A stretch of 64,000 nucleotides of DNA, taken from Gemmatimonadota bacterium. Its GTDB lineage: Bacteria > Gemmatimonadota > Gemmatimonadetes > Longimicrobiales > Gaopeijiaceae. Under the pieces are notes generated by a model. That model made no database searches. It had not been told where the DNA came from and was given only the letters and a program-made list of their open reading frames with translations. Positions within the stretch are counted from its first letter, which is position 1, and each line of letters begins with the position of its first letter. Below are positions 1,902 through 25,161 of this stretch, piece after piece. Where the stretch lies: assembly GCA_022826565.1 (NCBI GenBank), contig JAJDUP010000012.1, positions 310,001 through 374,000 of the forward strand, written 5' to 3'. Made by a program: the position numbers and the translations under genes.

Positions 1902-3092
1902 ATGCTCATCGATCGTCCGACACCCGCCAGACGCATCCGCGAGGCTCTCGCCGTTCATCCCTGTGCCGCGCTTACCGGCCCTCGTCAGTGCGGCAAGACC
2001 ACATTGGCCCGACAGATCGTGGCCGAAGCCCGCGCGGCTACGTTTTTCGATCTGGAGGCCGCAACCGACCGGCAGCGCCTCACCGCTCCCGAGCAGGCCC
2101 TGGGCCGGCTGGAGGGGCTCGTGGTCATCGATGAAGTCCAACGGATGCCCGCGCTCTTCGAGACCTTGCGTGTGCTGGTGGATCGTCCGCACAACGATGC
2201 TCGTTTCCTGCTGCTGGGCAGCGCATCGCCGCAACTGGTAAAGGGCGTTTCGGAATCTCTCGCGGGACGGGTGGGGCTCGTGGACCTGGGGGGCTTCAGT
2301 CTTGGCGAGACCGGAACCCACGCCTGGCGAACGCTCTGGGAGCGTGGAGGCTTTCCTCGCGCTTTTCTGGCGCGCACAGGGAGGAGTTCCGCTCTCTGGC
2401 GACGGGATTTCGTTCGGACATTCCTGGAGAGGGACATCCCCCAGTTCGGCATCACCATTCCGGCGGAAAGCCTGCGCCGCTTCTGGACCATGATCGCCCA
2501 CTATCACGGTCAGACCTGGAACGCCGCCGAGTTCGCCCGGTCGCTCGGGTCGGGCGAAGCGACCGCCCGGCGGTATCTCGACATACTCGCGGGAGCGTTC
2601 ATGGTGCGCGTGCTGCCGCCCTGGTTCGAGAACCTGAAGAAACGGCAGGTCAAGGCGCCGAAGGTCTACGTGCGCGACACGGGACTCCTGCACTCGCTGC
2701 TCGGAATTCCCCGGGAGGACCTGCTCTTCGGCCATCCCAAGGTCGGGGCCTCGTTCGAAGGATTCGTCATCGAGCAGCTGCTTGCCGCACTCGACACCCG
2801 GGATGCGTACTACTGGGCCACCCATGCCGGAGCCGAACTCGATCTGCTCGTTCTCCACGAAGGCAGGCGATACGGCTTCGAGTGCAAGTTTGCGGACGCC
2901 CCCGGCACGACGCGCTCGATGCGCGTGGCTCTCGAAGATCTGAGCCTGGAACACCTTTGGGTCGTTTATCCGGGCGACGAAGAGTACGCTCTCGACGAAA
3001 GGGTATCCGTGCTCCCCGCGGCGAGGATTGCGCGGCTGGTGGAAACGATGTTCGGGGCAGGCGGATTCACTGGTACGCCTGCTTCCCCATGA
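1902..3092 (+). CDS. AAA-14 / DUF4143 family ATPase
   Basis: With the ATG at 1902 the protein has 396 residues. The Walker A motif is GPRQCGKT (residues 26-33) and Walker B is LVVIDE (73-78), with VQRMP after it. The C-terminal half has the DUF4143 pattern ending in a PD-(D/E)XK-like signature (AELDLLVLHEGRRYGFECKF). Family members are stand-alone, often horizontally moved ATPases of unsettled function. A start 16 codons earlier (1854) is open in frame, but the 1902 start gives the canonical N-terminus directly before the P-loop. Its last 26 bases overlap the convergent qhpE-like gene. Confidence 0.85.
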   Translation: MLIDRPTPARRIREALAVHPCAALTGPRQCGKTTLARQIVAEARAATFFDLEAATDRQRLTAPEQALGRLEGLVVIDEVQRMPALFETLRVLVDRPHNDARFLLLGSASPQLVKGVSESLAGRVGLVDLGGFSLGETGTHAWRTLWERGGFPRAFLARTGRSSALWRRDFVRTFLERDIPQFGITIPAESLRRFWTMIAHYHGQTWNAAEFARSLGSGEATARRYLDILAGAFMVRVLPPWFENLKKRQVKAPKVYVRDTGLLHSLLGIPREDLLFGHPKVGASFEGFVIEQLLAALDTRDAYYWATHAGAELDLLVLHEGRRYGFECKFADAPGTTRSMRVALEDLSLEHLWVVYPGDEEYALDERVSVLPAARIARLVETMFGAGGFTGTPASP

Positions 3093-3804
3093 ATTCGATG
3101 CACTTCCCCGCGGTCCACGGCCGGTCGAATCCTTCCAGCGCCCTCGCCAGCACCCCGGTCACGTTCGCCACGGCAAAGCTGATTCCACTCAGATTCATCT
3201 CCACCGGCACCCCCGGAATCGGCCTCGGATACGGCGAAGCGGCGACCACCACGTCGCCACCGGCCGCCCCCCGCACCTCGACGCACCCGCGCGGGCAGTC
3301 GGCGTCCGCCACCACCCCCACCGTCGACGGCAGCGACCCCGGCCACCACCTCTGCCCATCGTCTTCCGCCGCCGCCACCACCACACCCCCCGCGCCGGCG
3401 AGCCGCGCCACCGCCCCGCCCAGCGCCTCGGCGTGCTCTTCGCGGAGTGTCCCCAGGCTCAGGTTGACCACGCGGATGCCGTTCGCCGCCGCCCAGTCGA
3501 TCGCGGCCACCAGCGCACGCGAACTCGTCCTCAGCCGGTCCTCGAAGACGCGCACCGCGAAGATGGCCGCGCCCGGCGCCTTCTCCTGAATGGCCGCGAA
3601 AACCGCGGTGCCGTGCCCGAGGCGGTCGATGTAGTCGTCTTCGATATCGCCGGAGAGGGCGATGCGCACGCCCCCGGCCACGTCGTCCACATGCGGGTGA
3701 TCCGGATTGACGCCGCTGTCCATGACGGCGACGGGGACGCCCCGGCCGGTCACAGGCAGCAGCGCTGGCGAGTCGATGCACACGCGCGCGTGTTCAGATG
3801 GCAA
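3067..3804 (-). CDS. qhpE: Short cytoplasmic subtilisin (S8) protease, QhpE-like
   Basis: A 245-residue subtilisin-like protease with no signal peptide and no pro-domain. The catalytic triad is visible: Asp29 in VAVMDSGV, His64 in LGHGTAVFAAI, Ser209 in LSGISFAVANVTG. Small, leaderless S8 proteases of this kind are QhpE, which removes the leader of the crosslinked gamma subunit QhpC of quinohemoprotein amine dehydrogenase before export. The rest of that system lies on the same strand at 13.6-23.3 kb in the order G, A, D, C, B, F, so this gene sits in the expected relative position (after F) but about 9.8 kb away. A different peptide substrate remains possible. Its 3' end overlaps the DUF4143 ATPase gene. 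Confidence 0.68.
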   Translation of the reverse strand: MPSEHARVCIDSPALLPVTGRGVPVAVMDSGVNPDHPHVDDVAGGVRIALSGDIEDDYIDRLGHGTAVFAAIQEKAPGAAIFAVRVFEDRLRTSSRALVAAIDWAAANGIRVVNLSLGTLREEHAEALGGAVARLAGAGGVVVAAAEDDGQRWWPGSLPSTVGVVADADCPRGCVEVRGAAGGDVVVAASPYPRPIPGVPVEMNLSGISFAVANVTGVLARALEGFDRPWTAGKCIEFMGKQAYQ

Positions 3805-4837: not shown

Positions 4838-4916
4838 CCTGCCTCCGCGGATCGGCGATTCGCGCCACGCTCGCCTCGTCGAGCTCGTCGATTGTCCCGC
4901 CAACTCAAAGGTGCAT

Positions 4917-6032: not shown

Positions 6033-6039
6033 GCCACCA

Positions 6040-9521: not shown

Positions 9522-9555
9522 TCCCCGGGTGCCTTGCCGTCGTGCTTGCCTAAAC

Positions 9556-10668: not shown

Positions 10669-10696
10669 GACATTATGGTATGTTGACATTACATTG
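10665..10696 (-). repeat. 32-bp AT-rich motif, copy 1 (candidate promoter/operator)
   Basis: Read on the minus strand, these 32 bases match 27 of 32 bases at 50063-50094 on the plus strand, both lying at the 5' end of a gene in the same orientation. Both contain CATAATGTCATGT. On the plus strand TGACATTA is directly repeated at 10668 and 10684. The segment also contains the last codons and TAA of the truncated propeller ORF. Confidence 0.5.
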
Positions 10697-11263: not shown

Positions 11264-11412
11264 CGCCATTTTCCTTTCGGGGCAGGGCAGGGCTGCCGCC
11301 AGCCGGTGGTTCGGATGCACGGATCTCCCTTACAACAGCGCCCACCGGGGAAGCGTGCAATGTCCTGTTGCACGTCTCAGGCCCGGGATCTGTTACAAGG
11401 GCAGCCTGACCC

Positions 11413-12267: not shown

Positions 12268-12844
12268 GCGACACGAGGTGGGCGCGGGAATTGACATCGA
12301 GGCTTTTCACCGAGGCGATCCGGAGGCGTTTCGGGTGCTGCTGCAGTCCCAGGGCCACCTCATCAGGAGCATCACGGCGTCGTACGCTGGGGACGGCGAT
12401 GAACGGGACGATCTCTACCAGGAGGTTTGCGTCCGCATCTGGAAGCAGAGACATCGCTACGAGCACCGTGGATCTCTGTCGGGATGGATAGCCAGGCTGA
12501 CCCACCATCATGCTCGCAATTGGCGCGCCAGAGAGCTGGCACGGGCATCGGCGATGGATCGGTACTCGGTTCAGGCCGCCCCCGTGCAGGACGCAGGGGA
12601 ACTCCTCACCGACCCGGGAAGGCTGTTGAGGTATCGGCGCTTCCTGGACAGGCTGGAGCACGCCCTGGCGCAGCTTCCCGCCCGCCAGGCCGAGGCCTTC
12701 ATCGTCGTCCATCTCAAGGGCAACAGTCCCAAAGCGGCCGCGAGAAAGCTCGGGGTGAGCCCGGCGACGATACGTTCCCACCTCCGACACGCCAGGATCA
12801 AACTCCGCACTTTGCTCAAGGGTTCGAAAGATGAACTGTCCTGA
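12260..12844 (+). CDS. ECF-family RNA polymerase sigma factor
   Basis: 194 residues from ATG 12260. Region 2 is seen in DERDDLYQEVCVRIWKQ with the SLSGWIARLTHHHARNW segment, and region 4 as a helix-turn-helix in KAAARKLGVSPATIRSHLRH. Size and domain order are normal for ECF sigma factors. It overlaps the LptF/G-like gene upstream by eight bases and the anti-sigma gene downstream by 14 bases. The four-gene arrangement (permease-like protein, sigma, anti-sigma, small membrane protein) suggests an envelope stress or export response. Confidence 0.9.
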   Translation: MDERHEVGAGIDIEAFHRGDPEAFRVLLQSQGHLIRSITASYAGDGDERDDLYQEVCVRIWKQRHRYEHRGSLSGWIARLTHHHARNWRARELARASAMDRYSVQAAPVQDAGELLTDPGRLLRYRRFLDRLEHALAQLPARQAEAFIVVHLKGNSPKAAARKLGVSPATIRSHLRHARIKLRTLLKGSKDELS

Positions 12845-13283
12845 CCTGGCCGCTCTCCGGAGCGCGGGCACTCCCCGGAGCGACCCGGCGGTGGTCGAGC
12901 ACCTCCAGACGTGCGAGGAATGCTGGCTCGACTGGCAGATTCAGGAAGGCGCCCGCCTTCTCCTCGACCCGGAGGAAAAGACCGTGCGCGATCTGAGTGA
13001 TCCCGACGAACGCGTCCTCACCCGGATTGCCGCGTTGGCGCGCGAGTCCGACACGGCGACGAGTTGGAAGCAGCTCGCCCTGTCGGCGCTTCTGATTGCC
13101 TTCGCCGTCCTGGTATTCGTGATGTTTCGTGATGCTGTCGTGGGCCCGATTCCAATCTGGTATGCCGCCCTCTACGCAGGGGCGGTGAGCCTTTGCTGGG
13201 CGCTGTACCGCTGGAGACGCGAGCGAACGGCGGTAGGGGCTTCGGATATGGAGGAGCCGCCGGAAGACTTGCCGGTCCGCTGA
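12831..13283 (+). CDS. Membrane anti-sigma factor with zinc-finger-like N-terminus
   Basis: 150 residues. The N-terminus has a Cys at position 3 and a HLQTCEECWLDW motif, the His-x3-Cys-x2-Cys arrangement of zinc-binding anti-sigma domains. Two membrane segments follow at about residues 80-100 and 108-125, with a short basic then acidic tail. It overlaps the ECF sigma gene by 14 bases, the usual layout for a cognate sigma/anti-sigma pair. The N-terminal domain would hold the sigma factor at the inner membrane. Confidence 0.8.
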   Translation: MNCPDLAALRSAGTPRSDPAVVEHLQTCEECWLDWQIQEGARLLLDPEEKTVRDLSDPDERVLTRIAALARESDTATSWKQLALSALLIAFAVLVFVMFRDAVVGPIPIWYAALYAGAVSLCWALYRWRRERTAVGASDMEEPPEDLPVR

Positions 13284-13289
13284 TCACCG

Positions 13290-13484
13290 ATGCTGCGCGA
13301 TTCCTTGCAAATGATTGGGGTGCTGGTCCTCCTCCTGGCCTTCAGCGGGCTCATACTCGCTGCGGTTCGCCTGTTCTTCTACCTGCTGGAGCGGGTGGCC
13401 GAGCGCGGGATGGGCCGGGACGAGGGTTCCGAAACGGCTGGTCGGGACAAGGGCGGCCCGGGAGAAACGGGCGCGGAGGATTGA
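13290..13484 (+). CDS. Small single-pass membrane protein
   Basis: 64 residues with one strong hydrophobic helix (residues 8-31) and a charged Gly/Glu-rich tail. It starts six bases after the anti-sigma stop and is probably the last gene of that operon. No family was recognised. Confidence 0.5.
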   Translation: MLRDSLQMIGVLVLLLAFSGLILAAVRLFFYLLERVAERGMGRDEGSETAGRDKGGPGETGAED

Positions 13485-13556
13485 AGACGGCTGCGACTCG
13501 GTAAAGGGGCTCTATGGCTGGGTCCGGTCGTTCTTCCGCGAAGGCCAGCGACCACC

Positions 13557-15206
13557 CTACCCCCCACCCACCCCCACCACCCGATCCACCCCCCGCAGCA
13601 TCTCTTCCCGGTGCGTGATCAGCACGGTCGTCCGCCCCCTCATCACCTCGCGGTATGCGCCCACCACATGCGCCTGGGCCTCCGCGTCGAGCGCACTCGT
13701 CGCCTCATCCAGCACCAGCACGGCCGGATCCGCCAGCAGCGCCCGCGCGATCGCCACGCGCTGACGCTCACCCGCCGAGAGCTGCCGGCCGTCCTCGCCC
13801 ACCACCGTGCCGAGCCCGTCGGGCAGCCCCGCCACGAAGTCCGCCAGCCCCGCGCGCTCCACGGCCCGCATCACCGCTGCCTCGTCGGCGTCGGGCCGCG
13901 CGTACCGAACGTTGTCCATGATCGAGGTGTTGAACACGAACGCGGCCTGGTCGACGAGGGCGACATTCGCGCGCAGCTCCGCCAGACCGATGTCCCGCAC
14001 ATCCCGCCCGTCCAGCAGCACGCGCCCGGCATCCGGGTCGAGGTGGCGGACGATCAGGTCGGCCACCGTCGACTTGCCGCTCCCCGACGGACCCACCAGC
14101 GCCACCACCTCACCCGGCGCGACGGTCATCCCGAATCCCTCCAGCACCGCGCCGCCCCGCCCGTGCCCGCACGACACGTCCTCGAAGACCAGCTCCCCGC
14201 GCACCCGGCCCAGCGAGGCCGGCGCCTCGGCATCGACCACTTCGACCGGCTCGTCGAGCAGCTCGTGCACGCGGCGCAGCGACACCCGCGCCGTCGCGAT
14301 CCCGGTGTACAGGCCCATCAGCCCCTGCACGGGACCGATCAGGCGCATCTGGTAGGCCATGAACGCGGTGAAGGTGCCGAGCGTGATCACGCCGTCGATC
14401 ACGCGCGCGCCGCCGTAGAGGAAGACCACCGCCGTGCTGGCCGACAGCAGCAGCCCCGGCAGGCCGCCCGACAGGTAGCGCAGCCGCTGCATCGACATGA
14501 GCGAGCGCACGAACGAGTCGTTGTGTTCGCGGAAGCGCCCCGCCTCGCGCTCGGCGGCGTTCGACGCGGCGATCAGGCGCACCCCGCGCAGCGTCTCGAT
14601 CAGAAAGGTGCCGATGCTCGCGCTCCGTTCACGCATGACCCGTACCCGCACCTCGAGGCGCCGCCGGTACCGCACGATCGCCCAGATCGCCGGCGGCAGC
14701 AGCGCGGCGGCGGCCAGGAACAGCTGCCAGTCGAGGACGAGGAGCATGGCCACCGTCCCAACCAGAAATGCCACGTTCCCGATCCACGCCAGCGCAGTGT
14801 CCGCGAGCACCCGCTGGATCTCGCCCACGTCGTTGTTGATCCGCGACATGATCTCGCCGAGCGGGGTCCGCGCGAAGAACCGGGGCGACAGCCGCTGCAG
14901 GTGCCGGTAGACCGCGAGCCGCATGTCGAAGAGGATCTCGGCCGACACCTTCGTGTAGCGCATCCCGCTGGCGAAGTTGAGGACGAAGCTGGCGGCGGTA
15001 ACGCCCGCGAAGAGGACGACGACCCGCACCAGCGCGCTCAGGTCCTGCCCGAGCAGCGCGTCGTCCACCAGGGTGCGGGTGAGGAAGGGGACGTAGAGCG
15101 CCAGCGCGGTCCCGGCCAGGTTCAGCGCCAGGATGACCGCGAGCCGCCACTTGTAGGGGAAGACGTAGGCGAGTCCGCGCCGCAGTTCGGCGTCCAGCAT
15201 GGCCAT
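13557..15206 (-). CDS. qhpF: ABC exporter, fused membrane and ATPase domains, QhpF-like
   Basis: 549 residues: six-helix ABC exporter membrane domain (residues 20-315), then the ATPase with Walker A GPSGSGKST (372-380), signature LSAGE (476-480) and Walker B VLVLDE (496-501). It is a half-transporter that should dimerise in the inner membrane. In Paracoccus the qhp operon order is A-D-C-B-F-E-G, with F an ABC transporter thought to export the crosslinked gamma subunit. Here the gene follows qhpB on the same strand, separated only by the convergent HepT/MntA pair, so that role is the best guess. By sequence alone it could be a lipid or drug exporter. Confidence 0.65.
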   Translation of the reverse strand: MAMLDAELRRGLAYVFPYKWRLAVILALNLAGTALALYVPFLTRTLVDDALLGQDLSALVRVVVLFAGVTAASFVLNFASGMRYTKVSAEILFDMRLAVYRHLQRLSPRFFARTPLGEIMSRINNDVGEIQRVLADTALAWIGNVAFLVGTVAMLLVLDWQLFLAAAALLPPAIWAIVRYRRRLEVRVRVMRERSASIGTFLIETLRGVRLIAASNAAEREAGRFREHNDSFVRSLMSMQRLRYLSGGLPGLLLSASTAVVFLYGGARVIDGVITLGTFTAFMAYQMRLIGPVQGLMGLYTGIATARVSLRRVHELLDEPVEVVDAEAPASLGRVRGELVFEDVSCGHGRGGAVLEGFGMTVAPGEVVALVGPSGSGKSTVADLIVRHLDPDAGRVLLDGRDVRDIGLAELRANVALVDQAAFVFNTSIMDNVRYARPDADEAAVMRAVERAGLADFVAGLPDGLGTVVGEDGRQLSAGERQRVAIARALLADPAVLVLDEATSALDAEAQAHVVGAYREVMRGRTTVLITHREEMLRGVDRVVGVGGG

Positions 15207-15293
15207 CAGGCTGCGGCCGGGGGCGGGGTTCGGCTACGCATGACCGTGACGTTGTGCCAGGACCATGGCACAGCGCCGCCTGACGGCGCGGGG

Positions 15294-15321
15294 TTGGCGT
15301 AGTGGACGGAAACCGTATACT
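15294..15321 (+). promoter_or_regulatory. Candidate promoter upstream of the MntA/HepT pair
   Basis: TTGGCG (15294-15299), 16-base spacer, TATACT (15316-15321), in the 247-base divergent region between qhpF and the mntA-like gene. It leaves a leader of about 125 bases before the GTG at 15454. No other feature is seen in 15207-15453. Confidence 0.4.
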
Positions 15322-15453
15322 GAAGACGACGGACGGGCACGCGGCCATCGTGACATCCGGGCGTGCACAAACCACTGAGATGGAGACCGATGACAGAGAA
15401 AGCGAGGGTACGCGGACGCTCTGGCCGCTTGCGGGCCATGCCCAGGTCGAGCG

Positions 15454-15813
15454 GTGGCTGAGGCCAAGCCGAGGGCCAGGACGTTTGGAGGCCACGAGCG
15501 GCTGGCTGCCCGAATCGGCGTGCCCCTCGACCTGGTCAAGGCGTTTTGCAACCGCTGGCAGGTAGAGGAACTGGCATTGTTCGGGTCCGTGCTGCGCGAC
15601 GATTTCGGGCCGGACAGCGACATCGATGTACTGATTCGCTTTCGATCAGAGCGGACCCCGGGTCTTTTCGGGATCGCCGAGATGGAGCGGGAGCTGGCAG
15701 GCTTGCTTGCGCGAAGTGTCGATCTGGTGACCCGAACCGCGATCGAGGAAAGCCGAAACTACATTCGTCGAAAGGCGATCCTGGAATCTGCGCGGGTGAT
15801 CTATGCCGCGTGA
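15454..15813 (+). CDS. mntA: MNT-type nucleotidyltransferase antitoxin (MntA-like)
   Basis: 119 residues from a GTG start. It carries the minimal nucleotidyltransferase signature: G44-S45, then ten residues, then D56-x-D58 (DSDIDVLIRF), as in antitoxins of the HEPN/MNT modules, which AMPylate a Tyr in the partner toxin. It overlaps the HEPN gene downstream by 11 bases. The pair lies convergent to qhpB, between qhpB and qhpF. Confidence 0.85.
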   Translation: MAEAKPRARTFGGHERLAARIGVPLDLVKAFCNRWQVEELALFGSVLRDDFGPDSDIDVLIRFRSERTPGLFGIAEMERELAGLLARSVDLVTRTAIEESRNYIRRKAILESARVIYAA

Positions 15814-16159
15814 CGACTCGGCGTACCTGCTGGATACGCTGCTCGCCGCCCGCGATGCGTTGTCTTTCACGGCAGGCATGTCCTACAACGACTTCGCGGG
15901 AGATCGGCGCACCCAGCTTTCGGTTGTCAAATCCGTAGAGATCATTGGGGAGGCTGCCGCACGCGTGCGAGATGCCACGAGGCGTGGAAACCCGGAAATC
16001 CCTTGGCGGGATATTGTCGGCATGCGCAATCGGCTCGTCCATGTCTACTTCGACATTGACCTTCCGCTCGTCTGGGATACAGTTCACAATGACCTCCCTG
16101 CTCTGATCGCCCGACTGGAACCGCTGGTGCCGCCCGAGGCCCAAACGCGCAAACCCTAA
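15803..16159 (+). CDS. hepT: HEPN-domain RNase toxin (HepT-like)
   Basis: 118 residues, all-helical HEPN protein (DUF86 type). The catalytic signature Arg-x4-His-x-Tyr is intact as RNRLVHVY (R75, H80, Y82); in characterised pairs the Arg and His cleave RNA, and the Tyr is the AMPylation site used by MntA. It overlaps the mntA-like gene by 11 bases. Its stop codon lies inside a perfect hairpin shared with the convergent qhpB stop. Confidence 0.87.
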   Translation: MPRDDSAYLLDTLLAARDALSFTAGMSYNDFAGDRRTQLSVVKSVEIIGEAAARVRDATRRGNPEIPWRDIVGMRNRLVHVYFDIDLPLVWDTVHNDLPALIARLEPLVPPEAQTRKP

Positions 16160-16174
16160 CGGTGCGTTAGGGTT
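16152..16174. terminator. Perfect 9-bp hairpin shared by the convergent hepT and qhpB stop codons
   Basis: AACCCTAAC (16152-16160), loop GGTGC, GTTAGGGTT (16166-16174). The left arm contains the TAA of hepT and the right arm contains the TAA of qhpB on the other strand, so both genes end within the stem. There is no long T-run, so it may act as a bidirectional terminator or an RNA-stabilising 3' end. Confidence 0.6.
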
Positions 16175-17282
16175 GTCCCGGCGACCCGCCCGAGTCCGCT
16201 TGCGGCCCCGTTCCCTCCGGGATCATCACGAAGCTGGTCATGTCGGCGTCGAAGGTCACGGTCCGCAGGAACTCGTAGGTGGCGGCGTCGTAGACGTCGA
16301 TCGTCGAACCGGCGTTGTAGATGTAGAGCAGTTCGCCGTTCGAGCTGATCTCGAGGCCCATCCGCGGACGCCCCGCGAAGCGCTGGCGGCTCTCCACGCG
16401 CCGACCCTCCACGTCGAAGGTCCAGAACTCGTAGTTGCCGATCTGCTGCACCAGCCCGTACGCCTTCCTGCCGCCGGGCGCGAGGCGGAAGCTGACCGGA
16501 GAGCTCGGCCCCAGGGTGAAGAAGTCGACGTCCCTCTCCGCCAGGTTGACGCGCGCGATCCCCATCATGCGGCGGTCCTGCACGGGGTCGGTGAAGTTGA
16601 AGAGGCCGGTGTGGAAGCCCTCGTCGTCGTGCGGGCTCGTGGGGAAGCCGAAGCTGAAGCGCCCCAGCCCCTCCTCGATCGGGCGGGACAGGTCCCAGCG
16701 GTCCTCTTCCGTGAAGTTCTCGGTCTCGAGGACGATGATGTTGCCCCGGCTGAAGAAGTACAGGTAGTCCCCCTCGGGCGAGAACATCAGCCGCGCCCTG
16801 CGGCCGCCATCGCCCTCCGGCCACGGGATCGTGTCGGTGACCTGTTTCTCGGCCAGGTCGTACTTCAGCAGGACCGCTTCCTCGATCTCCCAGCGGTCGA
16901 TGCGCTTGGTGTAGCGCATGGTATTGAGGATGATGAACTCCTCGGCCGGGTCGACCTCCATCCCCCAGATCCGCACCTTCCGGTTCCCGCGGCTGAGGGT
17001 GAAGCTGTCGATCGACTCGCGGCTCGCCACGTCGATGATCTCGATCTCCTCGAACTCGGCGTCGCGCACGTAGATGCGCTCGTGGTCCTTCGAGAGCGTC
17101 AGCCCGATCGGGATGCCGATCGTCGTCGGGATCTTGTCCACGACCTCAAGGGTGTTCTCGTCGATGACGTGGATCGCGTGGTCGTACGCCGCCATGTAGA
17201 TGACGCCGTTGCCGCCGCCCTGGGCGAGGGCGGGCGCGGGGAGGGCCAGCAGGCCGGCGGTCAGGAATGCCGCGGCACGCAT
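16167..17282 (-). CDS. qhpB: Quinohemoprotein amine dehydrogenase beta subunit
   Basis: 371 residues with a Sec signal peptide (cleavage after PAPALA, about residue 20). The mature protein is a beta-propeller of YVTN-like blades (YDHAIHVIDENTLEVVDKI, AEFEEIEIIDVASRE), matching the seven-bladed beta subunit of QHNDH, which docks the small gamma subunit in the periplasm. Its ATG overlaps the TGA of qhpC by one base, so it is translationally coupled. The C-terminus is slightly longer than I would expect and Gly/Pro-rich. The neighbours (qhpC, qhpD, qhpA in one run) make the assignment firm. Confidence 0.88.
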   Translation of the reverse strand: MRAAAFLTAGLLALPAPALAQGGGNGVIYMAAYDHAIHVIDENTLEVVDKIPTTIGIPIGLTLSKDHERIYVRDAEFEEIEIIDVASRESIDSFTLSRGNRKVRIWGMEVDPAEEFIILNTMRYTKRIDRWEIEEAVLLKYDLAEKQVTDTIPWPEGDGGRRARLMFSPEGDYLYFFSRGNIIVLETENFTEEDRWDLSRPIEEGLGRFSFGFPTSPHDDEGFHTGLFNFTDPVQDRRMMGIARVNLAERDVDFFTLGPSSPVSFRLAPGGRKAYGLVQQIGNYEFWTFDVEGRRVESRQRFAGRPRMGLEISSNGELLYIYNAGSTIDVYDAATYEFLRTVTFDADMTSFVMIPEGTGPQADSGGSPGQP

Positions 17283-17668
17283 CACGGGAAGATCAGGTCG
17301 ATCTTGCGCCAGTCCTTCTGCGCGGCCGCGCACTTGCCCGTCCAGTCGGGCGCGTGGTTCAGCTGGTCCGGGACGTGGGCGGGCCAGAAGCAGGCCAGGT
17401 GGCAATCGAAGAGGTCGCGCTCGACCGGCTGACAGAGTCCGGCCGTGCCGCCCGTCGAGTCCACTTCCCAACCCGGCGCGAATACGAGCGAGCACCCCAG
17501 CGGGATGTGCGGCCCGGACCGGTCCGGGGAGCTTTCGAGCGCGACGACGTCGAGGTCGGCGTCGCCGTTCGCGGCCACCGGCGATGCGGCAACCTCCCCG
17601 GGCACCCCCGGTGCCACATGCTCCTGAATCCGCCGTGCCTTCTGGTTGATGGCTTTCAAGTGGTCCAT
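17282..17668 (-). CDS. qhpC: Quinohemoprotein amine dehydrogenase gamma subunit precursor (CTQ-bearing RiPP-like peptide)
   Basis: A 128-residue precursor. From Cys59 on, every position used in the Paracoccus enzyme is kept at identical spacing: Cys59-Glu68, Cys79-Asp85 and Cys93-Asp101 (three Cys-to-Asp/Glu thioether bridges) and Cys89-Trp95 (cysteine tryptophylquinone, CTQ). Motifs: APGWEVD, LCQPVERDLFDCHLACFWP, AHVPD. Preceding them is a leader of about 50-58 residues (MDHLKAINQKARRIQEH...), longer than the 28 I recall for Paracoccus. An extra Cys113 lies outside the known bridge set. The peptide is modified by QhpD and QhpG, trimmed by QhpE and exported. It lies between qhpD (66-base gap) and qhpB (1-base overlap). 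Confidence 0.93.
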   Translation of the reverse strand: MDHLKAINQKARRIQEHVAPGVPGEVAASPVAANGDADLDVVALESSPDRSGPHIPLGCSLVFAPGWEVDSTGGTAGLCQPVERDLFDCHLACFWPAHVPDQLNHAPDWTGKCAAAQKDWRKIDLIFP

Positions 17669-17734
17669 TTGCCGGCCTCCTTTGTCACCGGCGATCTCTG
17701 ATCATGATGTCCTGTCATGATTCATGATCGCCGA

Positions 17735-19186
17735 TCATGATTCGAACTGTTCCAGATAGCCCGGATTCCGGACCGCGATCTCGCCGTAGACCTCCAGGCA
17801 GGTGTTGGTCCAGCTCCGGATCCAGTCGCAGTAGTGCAGGTTCGCCACGCCCGTGTCGCCGTAGCGCACATGCGCCTCGTGATAGCATCCGCCGGCGCAG
17901 AGCGGCCGTGCCCAGCAGGTGCTGCAGTCTGTCTTGTTGGCCACGTGGTGGTGCCCGAGGAACTCGAACTGGCGCTTGCGGTCGAGCCCGGTGTCCACCG
18001 AGCCGATGCTGTGATCGTCCGAGCCCGCGAAGCGGTGGCAGAGCGCGACCTCGCCGTCGGTGGCGACGCCCATCAGCCCGAGTCCGGCGCCGCAGGGGAA
18101 GGCCTTGCTCACGCCCTTGTGGATCTCCTCGATCGTGTCCTTCACGTTCGAGAAGCCGTGGTGCTTGTCCTCGACCGCGAAATCCAGAAACTCCCGCGCC
18201 AGCTCCTGGAACTGGCCGAGCATGCGGTCGAAGCCGGTGTCCTCGATCGCGTAGCCGCGTCCGTCGGCGGTCGTGACGGGGGCGAACCCGACCTCCCAGA
18301 AGCCGATCTCGTTGCGCAGATGGTGGAAGATCCGCGACACGTCCAGGGTCTGCCGAGTGAGCGTCACCCGGGCCCCGATCGGGCGGGTGCGGTGGCGCTC
18401 CAGCAGGCGCTTTATCTTGGGCATCGCGTAATCGTAGCTGCCCATCCCGTTCTTGAAGACGCGGAACCTGTTCTGCATCTCCTTCGGCCCGTCGATGCTT
18501 ACCGTCACGCCGATCCGGTTGTCCGCCAGCCAGTCGATCACCTCGTCGCGGAGCAGCGTGCCGTTCGTGGTCAGGGAGAAGTCGACATCCTTCCCCAGCT
18601 CCTTGGCCCGTTCGCGCGCATAGGCCGCGGTCTTCCTGAGGACCTTGAAGTTGAGCAGCGTCTCGCCGCCGAAGAAGGTGAGGTGCGCGACCGGCAGATC
18701 GCCCGACTGCTCGAACATGAAGTCGACGCTCTTCCGCGCGGTCTCCTCGCTCATGTAGTTGGGCGCCGGGTCGCAGGTCGTGTCGACGATCTTGTCCTCG
18801 CCGTACTCGTAGCAGTAGGTGCACGCCAGGTTGCACTTGTTGGTGACGTTGAGGACCATCGTCGTCAGCGGGAAATCCGCCTGGGGGAGCACCCGCGGGA
18901 AGGTCTCCTTCGGGGCCGTGGTGAGGCCGATGGCCTGCACGCGCATGAGTTCGGCGAGGCTGCGGCGGACGGTGTCCTCGCCGAAGCGCGGGGCGAGGGC
19001 GGCGACGATGTCGTTTTCGCTCGCGGCGCCCGCTTCGAGGGTCCGGAGGACGGCCAACGAAGCTTCGTCGAGGTGGAAGACGGCGGCCGAGGGGACCAGG
19101 TAGAGGAAGGTCTCGCCGCCGGCTTCGAAGGGGTGGAATTCGCGCTGGGCGAGGAAGGTGGTGTCGGTGGCGAGGGCGGTGCTCAT
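17735..19186 (-). CDS. qhpD: Radical SAM/SPASM maturase of QHNDH gamma subunit
   Basis: 483 residues. The N-terminal ~95 residues resemble a PqqD/RRE-like peptide-binding region (FYLVPSAAVFHLDE-type segment). The radical SAM cluster motif is CNLACTYC (Cys118, Cys122, Cys125), followed by FFGGETLLN and TTNGTLL. A Cys-rich SPASM-type C-terminus holds two auxiliary clusters (FPCGAGLGL, CSTCWARPLCAGGCYHE, HYCDW, NTC). QhpD installs the Cys-to-Asp/Glu thioether bridges in QhpC. The ATG overlaps the TGA of qhpA (ATGA). The open frame continues far upstream through qhpA in another frame, but the 19186 start gives the family N-terminus. Confidence 0.92.
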   Translation of the reverse strand: MSTALATDTTFLAQREFHPFEAGGETFLYLVPSAAVFHLDEASLAVLRTLEAGAASENDIVAALAPRFGEDTVRRSLAELMRVQAIGLTTAPKETFPRVLPQADFPLTTMVLNVTNKCNLACTYCYEYGEDKIVDTTCDPAPNYMSEETARKSVDFMFEQSGDLPVAHLTFFGGETLLNFKVLRKTAAYARERAKELGKDVDFSLTTNGTLLRDEVIDWLADNRIGVTVSIDGPKEMQNRFRVFKNGMGSYDYAMPKIKRLLERHRTRPIGARVTLTRQTLDVSRIFHHLRNEIGFWEVGFAPVTTADGRGYAIEDTGFDRMLGQFQELAREFLDFAVEDKHHGFSNVKDTIEEIHKGVSKAFPCGAGLGLMGVATDGEVALCHRFAGSDDHSIGSVDTGLDRKRQFEFLGHHHVANKTDCSTCWARPLCAGGCYHEAHVRYGDTGVANLHYCDWIRSWTNTCLEVYGEIAVRNPGYLEQFES

Positions 19187-20976
19187 CTCTGGCTCCCCAT
19201 GTCCGAGGTTCTGCGCGCGCCGCCCGGGACCATCTGGACCCGCCACGGCTCCCACCGCATGTAGAGCGGCACCGTGACGATCAGGTGGGCGCGTCCCCGC
19301 ACTTCCGTGCCGTCCGGGCCGCGATAGGTCGCGACCGTCCAGACGTCGCCGACGTTGTTGCGCATGCCTTCGCGGTCGGGGTTGGGGCCGTCGAGCGCCG
19401 GGTGGAAGAGGCCGTTTGCGTCGAGCGAGCCCACGTACTCGATGTCGTCGTCGTCGAAGATCGCCGAGTACTCCTCCATCGACCATTCGACGTCGACCAA
19501 GCCGAGGTCGAGGTCGTCGTCGGTGTCGGGCTCGCCGTCGGCGCCGTTGCTGAAGGCGGTGGCCTCGAACTGCGCGTATCCGCGGGGGAAGGCGCCGCCG
19601 CCGAGCCGCGCCATGCCGGCTTCGGGGGTGACGAGGATGCGGTCGACGGTCTCGTAGACGGTCAGGTGGCCGGGCACGGGGCGGCCCGCGAGGAAGACGT
19701 CCCGGGCACCGGGGGCGGCATCGCCGGCGGCGGTGACCTCGGCGGCGAACATGTCGGGGGCGCTCGCGGTCACGCTCACGACTTCGACGCCGGGGCCGAG
19801 GTCGAGGTCGGCGGCGCCCAGCCCGGTCGGAAGGTTCGCGCCGTGCACGGTGACGGTGGCGCTGCTGCCGGAGCGGAGCGCGCCGGGGTGCAATCCCAGA
19901 ACCACGGGGCCGTCCGCCCGCACGAGTGTGACATCGGGTCCGAACTCGTCGTAGTCGCCGGCGAACCAGCGGCCGTTGATCTCGTTCCAGCCGCGCTCCA
20001 CCATCATCACCTCGCGCAGCGCGTTCTCCTCGCTGGCCCCCTCGAAGGAGCGGCCGCGCCACTGGTAGCCCGTGTAGACGATCGCGCGCCCGTCGCGCTC
20101 GACCTGTTCGCCGGAGCGGGCGTAGGCGTAGCGGATCTGCGTGTCGAAGTTGCCCTCGTCGGCGGCCTGCGAGATCTCGACCGTGCCGTAGATCGGACCG
20201 CGGCCGGGGTCGTGACCCCGCAGCGCCCAGGTGCCGGCGATCCGCGGCGGCCGCATCGTCGCCGACCACGAACTCCATTCGGCGGTGGTCAGCGGAAACT
20301 TGCCCGAGAGCTCGTCGATCGCCTTGTCCATCGGGTGGCGGCTGTCCGCCCCGTCGGGGCCAGGCGGCCCGAACCGCCGGAATCCCTGCGTGTCGGACAG
20401 CGGATAGTAGCCGCGGTGCATCGCCATGAGCAGGTCCCACTCTTCCTTCGTCCTGCGCTGGGTGACGACGCGGCCCATCGAGTGGCAGCTGCTGCAGGTG
20501 CGGTCAACGTCCTCGTCCCCATCGTGCGCTTCCTCGTACGACCAGTCGATCAGGCGCCGCTCGACCTCGAAGCGGGCGGGGCGCAGCTCTTCGGGCGCGA
20601 TGCCGTGGTGGTCGGACAGGTAGCGCACGATGTCGCGGGCGGTCTCCGGCTCAAGTTCGACATCGTTGAGGGTCACCATGCGCCGGATCGACTGCTGCCA
20701 CCCCTCGGGCGTCTTCCGCATGTACGAGACGCGCGTCATCATCCCGTCGTCGTCGACGGCGTGGCACTGGTCGCAGGTGTCGATGACCAGCTGGTCGGTG
20801 ACGGGGATCCCGGTGCCGTTCGCGTCGTCGCCGGACTGCTGGGCGGATGCGGCCGGGGAAAAAGCCAGGGAAAGGAGCAACGCCGACAGCGCCGGCACCA
20901 CGGGGAGCGACAGGGGTTGCGTGCGTCCTGAAGTGCGGTTCCCGCCGCTCCCTGTCCTTCCTCTCCCTGGGCTCAT
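19183..20976 (-). CDS. qhpA: Quinohemoprotein amine dehydrogenase alpha subunit (dihaem)
   Basis: 597 residues with a signal peptide (cleavage near PAASAQ). Two c-type haem sites are seen: CDQCH (68-72) and CSSCH (161-165), with RRMVTLNDVEL as a likely Met ligand region. After the dihaem domain come Ig-like beta domains (for example GSSATVTVHGANLPTGLG) as in the known structure. Periplasmic; haems pass electrons from CTQ in the gamma subunit to the respiratory chain. The product oxidises primary amines to aldehydes. It is longer than I recall for typical QhpA proteins. It is the first gene of the coupled A-D-C-B run; a VapBC-type pair separates it from the qhpG-like gene. Confidence 0.9.
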   Translation of the reverse strand: MSPGRGRTGSGGNRTSGRTQPLSLPVVPALSALLLSLAFSPAASAQQSGDDANGTGIPVTDQLVIDTCDQCHAVDDDGMMTRVSYMRKTPEGWQQSIRRMVTLNDVELEPETARDIVRYLSDHHGIAPEELRPARFEVERRLIDWSYEEAHDGDEDVDRTCSSCHSMGRVVTQRRTKEEWDLLMAMHRGYYPLSDTQGFRRFGPPGPDGADSRHPMDKAIDELSGKFPLTTAEWSSWSATMRPPRIAGTWALRGHDPGRGPIYGTVEISQAADEGNFDTQIRYAYARSGEQVERDGRAIVYTGYQWRGRSFEGASEENALREVMMVERGWNEINGRWFAGDYDEFGPDVTLVRADGPVVLGLHPGALRSGSSATVTVHGANLPTGLGAADLDLGPGVEVVSVTASAPDMFAAEVTAAGDAAPGARDVFLAGRPVPGHLTVYETVDRILVTPEAGMARLGGGAFPRGYAQFEATAFSNGADGEPDTDDDLDLGLVDVEWSMEEYSAIFDDDDIEYVGSLDANGLFHPALDGPNPDREGMRNNVGDVWTVATYRGPDGTEVRGRAHLIVTVPLYMRWEPWRVQMVPGGARRTSDMGSQR

Positions 20977-21096
20977 CGCTGCCGCGTCCCTCCCGCTTCA
21001 AGGTGATGCACGTGATTCACGGGCCCTCGCGCCGTGGGCGACCTCTACGATAGGAAGGAGGCGGACACGGCGCAAAGTAGCGCGCGCCGCCTCCCC

Positions 21097-21498
21097 CTAA
21101 TCGCGATCGCGACAGCGGAAGGTGCACCGACACCCTGGTGCGCGTCTCAACCGGTCGTCCAGGGTCGCGAGCGGGGCATCGAGCGATTCCGCAAGGGCCA
21201 CGTACCAGGCGTCGTAGGGAGTGACGTTGTCGCGAAGCGCCCATGCTCGCCGCGCGAACGGCGCGAAGGGAAAGAGCTCGAATCGCAGATCCAGGAGGTC
21301 CTGAAGCGCGAGGGCCGCAACGCTTCCTGGAATCTCACCCTGCAACGCCGCGCGCCGCAGGACGTTGGCCACTTCCACGGGCATGTGGTGCGGTGCCGCC
21401 AGCGGCCCGCGCGCCAGTTGCTCGCTGGCCCACGCCCCCTCCGGCCCGGCGTCGATCAACGCGGAAGCGACGACGGTCGCGTCCACGACCAGCGTCAT
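21097..21498 (-). CDS. vapC: PIN-domain RNase toxin, VapC-type
   Basis: 133 residues. The four acidic PIN residues are in place: Asp6 (VVDATVV), Glu42 (PVEVANVL), Asp96 (TPYDAWYVALAE) and Asp114 (LATLDDRL). Length is normal for VapC. The ATG overlaps the stop of the antitoxin gene (ATGA). The pair lies between the qhpG-like gene and qhpA on the same strand. Confidence 0.88.
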   Translation of the reverse strand: MTLVVDATVVASALIDAGPEGAWASEQLARGPLAAPHHMPVEVANVLRRAALQGEIPGSVAALALQDLLDLRFELFPFAPFARRAWALRDNVTPYDAWYVALAESLDAPLATLDDRLRRAPGCRCTFRCRDRD

Positions 21499-21731
21499 CG
21501 GCGATCCTCGTCGCGATGGCGGAGAATGGCCGCCGCCGACAGTCTCGTTCCGGTCACCGCCTTACGCTTCTCGATGCGCGCGAGCACGTCGGCGACATCC
21601 GGCCGGCTGGCGAGTTCGATCAACGCCGTCTTGAGGTAGGACTGGAGGGAATGTCCGTTGGCCGCCGCTCGCGACGCGAGTTCACGGCAGACTCGCTCGG
21701 GAACATCCCGGACTGTGATGGATTTCTGCAT
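21495..21731 (-). CDS. vapB: Ribbon-helix-helix antitoxin, VapB/FitA-type
   Basis: 78 residues from ATG 21731. The N-terminus MQKSITVRDVPERVCRELA followed by NGHSLQSYLKTALIEL is the ribbon-helix-helix pattern of FitA/VapB antitoxins, which bind their own promoter and block the PIN partner with the C-terminal tail. It overlaps vapC by four bases. The promoter region near 21725-21745 is relatively AT-rich and contains the repeated TGCATG element. Confidence 0.85.
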   Translation of the reverse strand: MQKSITVRDVPERVCRELASRAAANGHSLQSYLKTALIELASRPDVADVLARIEKRKAVTGTRLSAAAILRHRDEDRR

Positions 21732-21784
21732 GCATGTATTATGCTGGTGATGCCTGTGTTTTGCAAGCAGAGGGTGGTCCAGTG

Positions 21785-23311
21785 CTACGATCCAGGTCCC
21801 GGCACCAGCACCCCATCCGCGATCAACAGCGCCACCACGCCGATGAAATTGGCCAGGTCGACCGGAGGCAGGTCTTCGCGGGCCGCCCACTCGGAGTACG
21901 CTTCGTAGAGGGCGCCGGGGTTGGGCGAGCCGGTGGCGAGGTGGACCACGCGGAGCAGGTCGACATCGCGGAAGAAGCGGACGCCGCCGGGGAAGCGGGG
22001 GGTGACGAGTGCCGGCGCCATGCGGATGCGGTTGCCGATGACGAGCGGTCGGTCGGCCGTCTCGCGGCGTCCCACCCGCAGGCGTCCGGAGCCGAGGCGG
22101 AGTGCGTGGAAAGCCGCTCGCACCTCGGGATCGTCGCGGAGAGTCTCGGCGTCGGGTCCGTCGGGCGCGTTGGCGTCGGCTGCGGACTGGGGCTGGTCGG
22201 CGAGCCAGCGCGCGCGGCGCTCCCAGAAGGCGTCCGGCGCCCTTTCCCCCACCTCGTCCACCTCCACCGCCAACCCCTCCCGCAACGACCGGTACATCGC
22301 ACGCTCCCGGTCGCTGTAGAAAGCGGTCGCGGCTCCCGCCAGCTCCGGCGTGCGGATCGCAGTGTTCACCGTGACGGCCGCCAGCCACGCCGACGCCAGC
22401 GCCTTCTTCACTCCGTACGACGACATCGGGTCCGCGAACGAGGCCGCGTCGCCCACGAGCAGCGCCCGCCCCACCGCGAACTCCGACGACGTGTACATCG
22501 ACGCGGTCACCGCCCAGGCGTCGCCGGCAGGCACGGCGGAGTTGGTGATGGAGCGCATGAGGGCGGTGTTCTCGATCTCGGCCTCGAAGGCAGCCGAAAG
22601 GTCGGCGGCCCCCTCCAGCACGTCCTGGAGTTGAGGGTCGACCATCACCGCCACATGACGCTCCCGTTCCGAGGTGGGCACCGACCAGGCCCAGCCGCGC
22701 TCGAAGCTCTCCACCAGGGCGTGGGTCGCGTCGACGTTCGCCCACCCATCCTCGCTGCGATACCTGCGCACGACTGCGAGCGTCGGCGCCTCGGCCTCGA
22801 GCACCCGGTAGCGGCGCGCCAGCACGCCCGCACGCCCAGTGCAGTCCAGCACCCAACCCGGCGCGATCTCCACGCGCTCCCCGGCATCCAGCACCACCTC
22901 GACCCGCCACCCCTCCCCGTCACCCACCCGCTCCGGCAACCTCGCCACACCCCCCACGATCTCCGCCCCGGCCCCCGCCGCCGCCTCACGCAGCAACCCG
23001 TCGAACCGCGACCGCAGGATGTGGAACCCGGTGGCGCCCCCCGCGAAGTCGTCCCGGCGGCCCTCACCACCCCACAGCGCCGTGTTCCCCCCGTTCGGGT
23101 GGAATCCCCCCGCCTCCACCACCCCGAGCAGCCCCGTCGCGGCGAGGATCTTGCGCGTACTGGGCGGCAGCGATTCGGCGAGGGACTGCGCGGCGGGGTC
23201 GGCCGCCCGCTCGACCACCACGACTTCGTGGCCCCACCGGGCGAGGAGTCGGGCCGCGGCGGCACCGGCCGGCCCGCCGCCGAGGATGAGGACTTGTGGT
23301 TCGCTGGTCAC
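21785..23311 (-). CDS. qhpG: FAD-dependent monooxygenase/halogenase-fold flavoprotein, QhpG-like
   Basis: About 508 residues from GTG 23311; the frame is open to 23452 but the region upstream of 23311 does not look like this family, which begins at QVLILGGGPAGAAAARLLA (FAD-binding GxGxxG). Other marks are the RSRFDGLLRE-type segment, the GDAASFADPMSSYGVKKAL motif of the second FAD contact, and a long C-terminal helical tail. QhpG is the flavoprotein that dihydroxylates the QhpC Trp on the way to CTQ. It lies directly upstream of the qhpADCB run (with vapBC in between), which makes that role likely. Another tryptophan halogenase-like role cannot be excluded. Confidence 0.72.
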   Translation of the reverse strand: MTSEPQVLILGGGPAGAAAARLLARWGHEVVVVERAADPAAQSLAESLPPSTRKILAATGLLGVVEAGGFHPNGGNTALWGGEGRRDDFAGGATGFHILRSRFDGLLREAAAGAGAEIVGGVARLPERVGDGEGWRVEVVLDAGERVEIAPGWVLDCTGRAGVLARRYRVLEAEAPTLAVVRRYRSEDGWANVDATHALVESFERGWAWSVPTSERERHVAVMVDPQLQDVLEGAADLSAAFEAEIENTALMRSITNSAVPAGDAWAVTASMYTSSEFAVGRALLVGDAASFADPMSSYGVKKALASAWLAAVTVNTAIRTPELAGAATAFYSDRERAMYRSLREGLAVEVDEVGERAPDAFWERRARWLADQPQSAADANAPDGPDAETLRDDPEVRAAFHALRLGSGRLRVGRRETADRPLVIGNRIRMAPALVTPRFPGGVRFFRDVDLLRVVHLATGSPNPGALYEAYSEWAAREDLPPVDLANFIGVVALLIADGVLVPGPGS

Positions 23312-23617: not shown

Positions 23618-23690
23618 GCCCCCATCGTCTAGTGGACTAGGATACCTGGTTCTCAGCCAGGAGACCGGGGTTCGATTCCCCGTGGGGGTA
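23618..23690 (+). tRNA. tRNA-Glu (anticodon CTC)
   Basis: Complete cloverleaf: acceptor GCCCCCA (23618-23624) pairs with TGGGGGT (23683-23689), discriminator A. Anticodon arm CCTGG-TTCTCAG-CCAGG with anticodon CTC at 23652-23654. T arm CCGGGGTTCGATTCCCCG. CCA is not encoded. The tRNA-Val starts five bases later, so the two are probably one transcript. Confidence 0.95.
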
Positions 23691-23695
23691 CTCAA

Positions 23696-23768
23696 GGTCG
23701 CTTAGCTCAGTCGGTAGAGCACTACGCTCACATCGTAGGGGTCGCTGGTTCGAGTCCAGCAGCGACCA
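23696..23768 (+). tRNA. tRNA-Val (anticodon CAC)
   Basis: Acceptor GGTCGCT (23696-23702) pairs with AGCGACC (23761-23767), discriminator A. Anticodon arm CTACG-CTCACAT-CGTAG with anticodon CAC at 23729-23731; T arm GCTGGTTCGAGTCCAGC. CCA is not encoded. It is followed by the hipBA accessory block, but I saw no duplicated tRNA 3' end that would mark an integration site. Confidence 0.95.
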
Positions 23769-23880: not shown

Positions 23881-25161
23881 TTACCTTCGCAGACGGTCCA
23901 GGCATGCGCTCGCGTGACTCCCGATCCCGTCCTTCAGCCTTTCGGCAATTGGGTGATCCAGTCCTTCCGATTGGGCGGCCGTGACGACATCGGCGAAACG
24001 GTCGCGGGTCTCGGCGGCCACGGATTCGCAGATTCCGAGGACCTCTTGAGGCGGCAAACCCGCCTCGGCAGCGAACCGCTCCCAATGTCTTACCCGGATG
24101 TACCCGAGCCGCGACTCCCCGCCGATCTTCATGGCCAGTTTGAGCCTCGGCGCGTAGTTGCCGGGGTAGGGCAGGGCGCTGGCCAGGTCGTAGAGTGGCG
24201 CGAGCCTGGCGTTGCCCCCGGCGCCGATCAGGAGTGAGAAGTTCCTGGCGTGAGCGTCGGTGCCGCCGATGACCCAGTTCACTGCGATCGCCTTCACGAA
24301 CGTGCGGAGATCTTCGCCCGGACGAGCGCAGTGGGACTGAATTGCGCCAGCGATGTCCCGGCAGCCCGGTCCGCCGTCGCTCTGGTACTTGTTGAAGGGG
24401 CTGCGCGCGAGCGTCTGGCAAAGGTCTTCCTGGTGCAGCCGTACCAGGCGTCCCGCGGCGCGGATCCGATCGTACCTTTCGACGACTATGGCGGTCTCCT
24501 GCCCGAAGCGCCCTACCAGGGATCGTGCGGTGGGAATGCCCAGGGCTTCTGCCAGAGCCAGGCAGAGGTGCTCGTTCTCGCAGTGTCCGGGGAAGCCGGG
24601 GATTGGGGGTTTCAGGATGTGGGTTGTGGGTGTCGCACCGTGTGGAATGCCCCAGCGGCCGTCTTCCTGGAGCAGCGCCGTCTTGGACTGCGCCCCGGCC
24701 AGGCTGAACTGTCCCTCGTCGCCGTCGAGCCGCCACGCGCTGTCGTCCATGCGCAGAGTACGCAGGCGAGCCTCGACCTCGGCAGCCGTCAGCCACGCGA
24801 CTTGCCGACCCGCCGGAGCCATTACGCGGTCGACGCGCTCCGGCCGCACCAGCTGAACCGCCCCCGGGCAGTCCTCCCCTGTGGCCCTGAGCAGCGAAAA
24901 GGCACTGCGGGCCGACACATGGAACGTGCGAGCCCAACGTGTCAGCACGTTTTCGTTGTCCGGAAGGAGGCCCCAGAGCCATGGCTCGATCCGGTCGTGA
25001 CCGTGGTTGGGGACAGTCAGCGGCATCGAGAGGGAAAGCGGATAGGCCGCTTCGTCCCTGCTCCATCCCTCGTCGTACTCGAACGCAAGCTGCCCTCGGG
25101 CGTCACGTTGCACCTCGCCCATGACTCGCCCGTTGGCCAGCGCGACCAGGCGGTCGGTCAC
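23881..25161 (-). CDS. hipA: HipA-family Ser/Thr kinase toxin
   Basis: 426 residues, normal HipA length. Seen are the N-terminal couple_hipA region (PYPLSLSMPLT, WGLLPDNENVLTRWA), the nucleotide loop GQFSLAGAQSKTAL, HILKPP, the catalytic core NWVIGGTDAHARNFSLL and the metal-binding PLYDLASALPY. Known HipA kinases phosphorylate glutamyl-tRNA synthetase or related targets and cause growth arrest. The ATG overlaps the hipB stop (ATGA). A tRNA-Glu gene happens to lie about 190 bases beyond the 3' end. Confidence 0.9.
   Translation of the reverse strand: MTDRLVALANGRVMGEVQRDARGQLAFEYDEGWSRDEAAYPLSLSMPLTVPNHGHDRIEPWLWGLLPDNENVLTRWARTFHVSARSAFSLLRATGEDCPGAVQLVRPERVDRVMAPAGRQVAWLTAAEVEARLRTLRMDDSAWRLDGDEGQFSLAGAQSKTALLQEDGRWGIPHGATPTTHILKPPIPGFPGHCENEHLCLALAEALGIPTARSLVGRFGQETAIVVERYDRIRAAGRLVRLHQEDLCQTLARSPFNKYQSDGGPGCRDIAGAIQSHCARPGEDLRTFVKAIAVNWVIGGTDAHARNFSLLIGAGGNARLAPLYDLASALPYPGNYAPRLKLAMKIGGESRLGYIRVRHWERFAAEAGLPPQEVLGICESVAAETRDRFADVVTAAQSEGLDHPIAERLKDGIGSHASACLDRLRR

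Follow-up and report, generated by a model that had tools for sequence, protein, structure and literature searches.

A Gemmatimonadota-type quinohemoprotein amine dehydrogenase gene set with a divergent beta subunit

The qhp locus and its layout

A stretch of 64,000 nucleotides from a Gemmatimonadota bacterium (contig JAJDUP010000012.1; the whole stretch is called the window below) carries a complete qhp locus, A to G, i.e. the genes for a quinohemoprotein amine dehydrogenase (QHNDH) and for the maturation of its cysteine tryptophylquinone (CTQ). A preliminary description of the window rightly placed six of these genes (G, A, D, C, B and F) on one strand, here the minus strand, and its outer coordinates for them, 13557..23311, were right. 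But the set does not stop there: it continues to qhpE (3067-3783), which that description had omitted from its parts list. All seven frames are open, all are on the minus strand, and the gene order is G-A-D-C-B-F-E (Table 1). Besides qhpE, two toxin-antitoxin-like pairs had gone unnoticed, as had the fact that the beta subunit scores below its family cut-off yet is predicted to have a QHNDH-like fold.

With the NCBIfam models A, C and D pass their cut-offs while B, E and G miss them; the cut-off of TIGR03907, missed by B, is an annotation threshold and not a biological definition. With three of seven genes under the curated cut-offs and qhpE 9.8 kb off, the window illustrates how qhp loci can look incomplete. 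The same genes recur in the same order in relatives (see below), so that chance occurrence is not an issue.

Table 1. Features of the qhp locus and its immediate surroundings (window coordinates)
Feature	Position	Strand	Evidence and remarks
qhpG, flavin monooxygenase (peptidyl tryptophan dihydroxylase)	21785..23311	-	NF049967 match
FitA/VapB-like antitoxin	21495..21731	-	PF22513; between qhpG and qhpA
PIN-domain (VapC-like) toxin	21097..21498	-	PF01850, 49.5 bits (cut-off 23.6); between qhpG and qhpA
qhpA, dihaem alpha subunit	19183..20976	-	TIGR03908, QHNDH-alpha Pfam domains
qhpD, radical SAM/SPASM thioether maturase	17735..19186	-	TIGR03906
qhpC, gamma-subunit precursor, long leader	17282..17668	-	NF037958, PF08992
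qhpB, divergent seven-bladed propeller beta subunit	16167..17282	-	Predicted fold; weak TIGR03907
HEPN/HepT-like RNase toxin	15803..16159	+	PF01934, 94 bits (cut-off 23.5); between qhpB and qhpF
MntA-like nucleotidyltransferase antitoxin paired with the HEPN toxin	15454..15813	+	PF01909, 62.3 bits (cut-off 21)
qhpF, ABC exporter, putatively for modified gamma	13557..15206	-	PF00664, PF00005, conserved position
qhpE, subtilisin-like leader protease	3067..3783	-	NF049966
tRNA-Glu and tRNA-Val, conserved neighbour adjoining qhpG	23618..23768	+	

Alpha subunit, thioether maturase and gamma precursor

QhpA scores 473.8 bits with TIGR03908 (cut-off 274). It contains the four QHNDH-alpha domains of Pfam (I-IV) and two CxxCH motifs of c-type haem. 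Alignments with the alpha chains of known structure extend through most of the protein (1jmx_A, 1.3e-79; 1jju_A, 2.1e-63). QhpD reaches 564.2 bits with the QHNDH-specific equivalog TIGR03906 (cut-off 453), and its Cys118, Cys122 and Cys125, as well as seven C-terminal cysteines, are invariant in an alignment of 15 sequences. The QhpC precursor is well above both its cut-offs (NF037958, 120.4 bits for 50; PF08992, 112.5 bits for 25).

The gamma precursors of the window, of 12 relatives from the same phylum, of Paracoccus pantotrophus and of Pseudomonas nitroreducens were aligned (n = 15); alignments with PDB chains were also made. Eight residues of interest are invariant: Cys59, Glu68, Cys79, Asp85, Cys89, Cys93, Trp95 and Asp101. 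The Cys/Trp couple of CTQ, described as intact beforehand, is indeed kept, and so are the three Cys-Asp/Glu thioether pairs. We take CTQ to be Cys37-Trp43 in QHNDH numbering, i.e. Cys89-Trp95 in the window with an offset of 52. Subtracting the same constant from the window numbering gives thioethers Cys7-Glu16, Cys27-Asp33 and Cys41-Asp49, the very pairs listed for QHNDH in an excerpt of PMC8172795.

According to an excerpt of PMC7876137 the leader of the Paracoccus gamma subunit has 28 residues. That of P. pantotrophus ends with VVA before MNSL, and in the window VVA precedes LES. From this common VVA we infer cleavage after Ala43. The leader would then have about 43 residues, and the mature chain, at 85 residues, would have an extended N-terminus.

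The nucleotide sequence of qhpC (17285-17668) shows zero base differences over 128 codons with that of a relative of the same genus, G061 (L034:6237-6620), while the D, B, A, F and G genes of this relative differ from those of the window at a synonymous divergence (dS) of 0.08-0.16. This identity might stem from recent exchange or from constraint at the DNA level.

A divergent beta subunit

QhpB scores 44.2 bits with TIGR03907, for a cut-off of 223.2, and a single-sequence search of PDB with E up to 1 matched no QHNDH beta chain. The other non-classical beta proteins that were tested fail the same model as well (5/5; 34-78 bits), while a classical control, from Thauera, passes with 476.7 bits.

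A first beta profile held three classical rows and was thus not an independent test. An independent one was built from 18 of the 27 rows, all of the Gemmatimonadota/Acidobacteriota type and none classical. It reaches 1jju_B (3.8e-9) and 1jmx_B (1.8e-7) over nearly the full length, its top match, above these QHNDH beta chains, being a surface-layer propeller. The AlphaFold model of QhpB, whose input alignment comprised the 27 rows with the three classical QhpBs, has a predicted local distance difference test (pLDDT) of 84.1 and a predicted template modelling score (pTM) of 0.81. Its best fold matches in PDB are 1jju_B (rank 1) and 1jmx_B (rank 2), with template modelling scores by query length of 0.72 and 0.74 for identities of 16% and 14% respectively. 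On account of the reach of the profile, of these fold matches and of a cut-off failure common to the non-classical betas, QhpB is taken as a true but divergent QHNDH beta subunit. Two consecutive beta-subunit matches are present in one qhp locus of Candidatus Acidiferrum typicum (L124:10870-13143).

A rival reading is that the genes make up another kind of radical-SAM system for peptide modification, whose QhpC-like peptide would be a secreted product and not a dehydrogenase subunit. The divergence of the beta protein would fit this, as would the scores of QhpD with other SPASM peptide maturases (279 bits with the PapB family, cut-off 340). We consider this highly improbable: against it stand the score of QhpD with its equivalog, the adjoining alpha subunit with four QHNDH domains, a beta fold that best matches QHNDH beta, and the invariant CTQ residues. 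The preliminary description had proposed to check whether QhpD clusters with SPASM proteins foreign to QHNDH; this test does not refute it, as QhpD passes the QHNDH equivalog and groups with the QhpDs of qhp loci.

QhpG, QhpF, QhpE and the regulator

For QhpG the best NCBIfam match is NF049967, whose cut-off of 240 bits it misses by 8 (231.7 bits), and phmmer aligns it with the QhpG structure 7ctq at 5.6e-19. QhpF is an ABC exporter by PF00664 and PF00005, and no Qhp-specific model figured among the 25 listed of 188 families; it is assigned as the gamma exporter by its conserved position after qhpB in relatives. QhpE has NF049966 (QH_SP) as best NCBIfam match; at 160.1 bits it misses the cut-off of 165 by 5. 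The genome contains two subtilase matches, and window 3067-3783 is the sole match to NF049966. Asp22, His57 and Ser202 of QhpE are invariant in 7 QhpE sequences and are taken as its catalytic triad. The QhpE model finds a match in 73 of the 75 genomes of the phylum that have a gamma subunit, 70 of them at 97 bits or more; the remaining three score less than 50 bits and might represent subtilases of another kind.

In Paracoccus, QhpR belongs to the set required for amine-induced expression. As described beforehand, the window holds no qhpR-type regulator, and the genome has no full-length QhpR match either. The genome being 93% complete, absence of QhpR is likely, not proven. The AraC protein of Paracoccus used as query matched two regions outside the window, with 24 and 19 bits; these genomic AraC genes were rejected as QhpR since the matches span the helix-turn-helix domain alone.

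Inserts within the run and selection on the genes

Two toxin-antitoxin-like pairs interrupt the run, one VapBC/FitAB-like between G and A, the other MntA/HepT-like between B and F. The antitoxin gene 21495..21731 gives 30.2 bits with PF22513 (cut-off 27), on a longer frame containing the gene, and 22 bits with NF050181 (cut-off 60), the HEPN gene 37.4 bits with NF047751 (cut-off 60) and the nucleotidyltransferase gene 38.1 bits with NF047752 (cut-off 60). Both genes flanking the VapBC/FitAB-like pair (21097-21731) are visible in 9 genus relatives, and 4 of these have the pair as well (G061, G247, G299 and G394). In a fifth, G058, there is just a short PIN-like match (L036:6436-6591; 46% identity along about 52 residues) that overlaps qhpG at its end and is perhaps a remnant of this pair.

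The MntA/HepT-like pair (15454-16159) is on the plus strand, opposite to the qhp genes. Window 15223..16203 (about 981 bp) is unmatched in G061, the nearest relative, where the same breakpoints are 19 bp apart (blastn, approximate), and tblastn (E up to 1e-4) found no match to the two proteins in 40 relative loci fetched from 28 genomes, not all of which span the B-F interval. The final residues of qhpB are altered by this insert; the start of qhpF is not affected.

Between F and E lie about 9.8 kb with an extracytoplasmic function (ECF) sigma factor gene, carboxypeptidase-regulatory-like genes, TonB-plug genes and a 6-bladed propeller gene. This interval (3784-13556) is highly variable within the genus, from almost nil (G347) through 0.2-0.3 kb (G192, G017) up to about 26 kb (G058). 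Several members have 6-bladed propeller and carboxypeptidase-regulatory-like genes in it, and some an ECF sigma factor gene. As a candidate regulator of qhp the ECF sigma factor (12260-12844) was rejected: it adjoins qhpF in G061 alone among the fetched genus relatives, and no link is claimed. Other genus members carry large lipoprotein-like genes between A and D, propeller-like lipoprotein genes and an integrase-like frame between their qhp genes (named by eye from the sequence). A HipA/HipB-like pair adjoining the tRNA genes (23881-25484) is a third pair of toxin-antitoxin type within about 10 kb.

The ratio of nonsynonymous to synonymous substitution rates (dN/dS) was computed for each gene against three or four relatives (from G061, G058, G247 and G161), setting aside cpd7743 of G061 and qhpB of G161, which have a stop inside the tblastn-derived stretch. 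In the usable comparisons the seven qhp genes range from 0.02 to 0.43, with 0.16-0.26 for qhpG and 0.04-0.19 for qhpF (four relatives each) and 0.22-0.43 for qhpE; the values for qhpE, for qhpB and the measurable one for qhpC come from three relatives each. These ratios indicate that all seven genes are under purifying selection and maintained as working genes.

A decaying locus, with genes still recognisable but with co-expression broken by the inserts G/A, B/F and F/E and no enzyme made, would fit the two pairs and the 9.8-kb block, and qhpE having the highest usable dN/dS (0.43 against G061). It is nevertheless very unlikely, given that the seven frames are open, that each gene is under purifying selection against relatives, and that relatives with other inserts retain their qhp genes too.

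Distribution and descent

A gamma match is present in 75/395 sampled genomes of the phylum, in 64/286 of those at 90% completeness with at most 5% contamination, and in 19 of the 23 listed genomes of the window's genus. A scan of named genomes gave at least 476 QhpD relatives; the best 80, which were kept, include beyond Pseudomonadota members of Gemmatimonadota, Acidobacteriota and Planctomycetota, and one record labelled bacterium. Thus any rarity implied by the preliminary description is not supported; its placing of a qhp locus in Gemmatimonadota, outside Pseudomonadota, is.

The order G-A-D-C-B-F-E is found on a single contig and strand in 14 of the 28 fetched relatives of the phylum, 11 of them inside one fetched stretch. 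Of 11 scanned qhp loci 7 have the tRNA-Glu/Val pair, and one of these 7 belongs to a different genus within the family.

The QhpD tree has 88 rows and was obtained by a quick method, without bootstrap, that warns of long branches meeting. Left out of it were 20 locus ids (duplicates or fragments, G309 being lost thereby), 14 Pseudomonas rows and matches below 380 aa or 550 bits. Twenty classical Pseudomonadota rows separate from the other 68 with a support of 100. The rows of Gemmatimonadota are gathered in a single set of 33 (support 98), which also contains one record under the label Gammaproteobacteria. Adjoining this set are six Acidobacteriota rows (support 94, not starred), and other Acidobacteriota are elsewhere. 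The branch of the window QhpD also comprises Acidobacteriota, Planctomycetota and sphingomonads and lies apart from that of Pseudomonas and Paracoccus, to which the solved structures belong. The QhpD of L085 (contig VXNP01000148.1), labelled Gammaproteobacteria, is identical to that of the Gemmatimonadota relative G086; L085 is probably a mislabelled assembly of the same genome.

The grouping of QhpD, the recurrent order and the recurrent tRNA pair point to descent within the phylum rather than recent gain. A mobile island lately acquired from Pseudomonadota beside tRNA genes would fit the tRNA-Glu/Val genes next to qhpG and the toxin-antitoxin-like genes nearby. We give it hardly any credit: the same tRNA pair recurs at other loci, QhpD is far from the classical Pseudomonadota, and the G+C of the qhp genes (0.66-0.73) brackets that of the window (0.68).

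Proposed function

We conclude that the locus is very probably a complete, selected-for QHNDH gene set of a Gemmatimonadota type, encoding a working system. This reading is based on A, C and D above their cut-offs with G and E within 9 bits of theirs, on the invariant CTQ and thioether residues and the Asp/His/Ser residues of QhpE, and on the beta fold, the shared order and dN/dS.

Several points weigh against it. To the low TIGR03907 score of QhpB and its unmatched PDB search are added the halogenases 3i3l, 8zop and 3e1t, which outscore 7ctq in the PDB sequence search with QhpG, and a QhpF that family models do not distinguish from other MsbA-like exporters. No QhpR orthologue was found in the window or, at full length, in the genome, and the inserts cut qhpF and qhpE off from A-D-C-B, so that co-expression is not assured. 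The other 14 of the 28 relatives do not show the full order, many of them having a gene on another contig or beyond the stretch, and others depart from it: in G070 qhpG is downstream on the opposite strand, and in G161 qhpE is about 495 kb off.

In Paracoccus, as set out in an excerpt of PMC7876137, QhpD forms the thioethers, QhpG dihydroxylates, QhpE removes the leader, QhpF exports, and a final oxidation takes place in the periplasm. By homology, the QhpD of the window would form the thioethers in the gamma precursor, its QhpG would dihydroxylate the precursor, its QhpE would remove the leader and its QhpF would export the modified gamma subunit. CTQ (Cys89-Trp95) would then be completed in the periplasm, where gamma would join the dihaem alpha and the propeller beta; the enzyme would deaminate primary amines and hand the electrons on, by way of the two haems, to an acceptor in the periplasm. 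The biochemical steps, their order, the cleavage site, the substrate and the activity are all carried over from Paracoccus and Pseudomonas. The gene identities, residues, order, conservation and selection are shown here; the functional amine dehydrogenase put forward in the preliminary description remains a matter of analogy.

Relation to the classical systems and to other qhp loci

This is a known kind of system, and its wide distribution is already reported in general terms (PMC7876137 and PMC8172795, in the excerpts concerned); the branch with a divergent beta is the part worth following. In our literature searches we saw no paper describing qhp in Gemmatimonadota, and found no biochemistry for the QhpD branch of the window. 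In an excerpt of PMC6662431 qhpA is among the marker genes of a soil survey and is not tied there to Gemmatimonadetes; PMC4417212, likewise in excerpt, concerns lodA/goxA, not qhp.

The QHNDHs of Paracoccus and Pseudomonas, qhp (pea) (PDB 1jju and 1jmx; 7ctq for QhpG), have the same alpha, beta, gamma, D, E and G components and, going by position, the same F, and share with the window the CTQ and thioether residues and the two haem motifs. Identity is 38% (P. pantotrophus) and 35% (P. nitroreducens) for QhpD and 15-18% for the beta protein relative to the three classical rows. The window further differs by its leader, of about 43 residues at the inferred site against 28 in Paracoccus, by its order G-A-D-C-B-F-E, and by QhpR not being found. 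On the P. pantotrophus plasmid, G is on the opposite strand, followed by A-D-C-B-E-F and then by an AraC gene on the opposite strand; this is not the Paracoccus order A-D-C-B-F-E-G given beforehand. Three Acidobacteriota loci (L083, L087 and L096) have the same order as the window, with QhpDs 61-68% identical to its own, but with E directly after F, unlike the window; in the QhpD tree their rows are among those adjoining the Gemmatimonadota set.

The crosslinked-peptide enzyme of Paracoccus and Pseudomonas, with its whole maturation set, is thus placed in roughly a fifth of the genomes sampled from a different phylum, and the deep second branch offers a way of testing how general the various parts of CTQ formation are. 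More speculatively, Gemmatimonadota, Acidobacteriota, Planctomycetota and sphingomonads might possess a second QHNDH class, with a beta type and a regulation of its own and with the leader and the N-terminus of gamma extended, so as to differ in substrate range, electron partner or assembly; we hold this less likely than not. If it were true, the missed curated cut-offs (B, E and G) could hide such loci from annotation.

Two sphingomonad loci (L101 and L074) belong to the same wider QhpD branch. They have A-D-C-B then F-E, and the profile used detected no QhpG there. In Sphingobium scionense a shorter gene lies between B and F (L101:11857-12903) and is weakly QhpG-like (58.2 bits, cut-off 240). 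This gene might encode another maturase acting at the QhpG step. Long frames occupy the same place between B and F in L074, L102, L105 and L114, the family search having been made on L101 alone.

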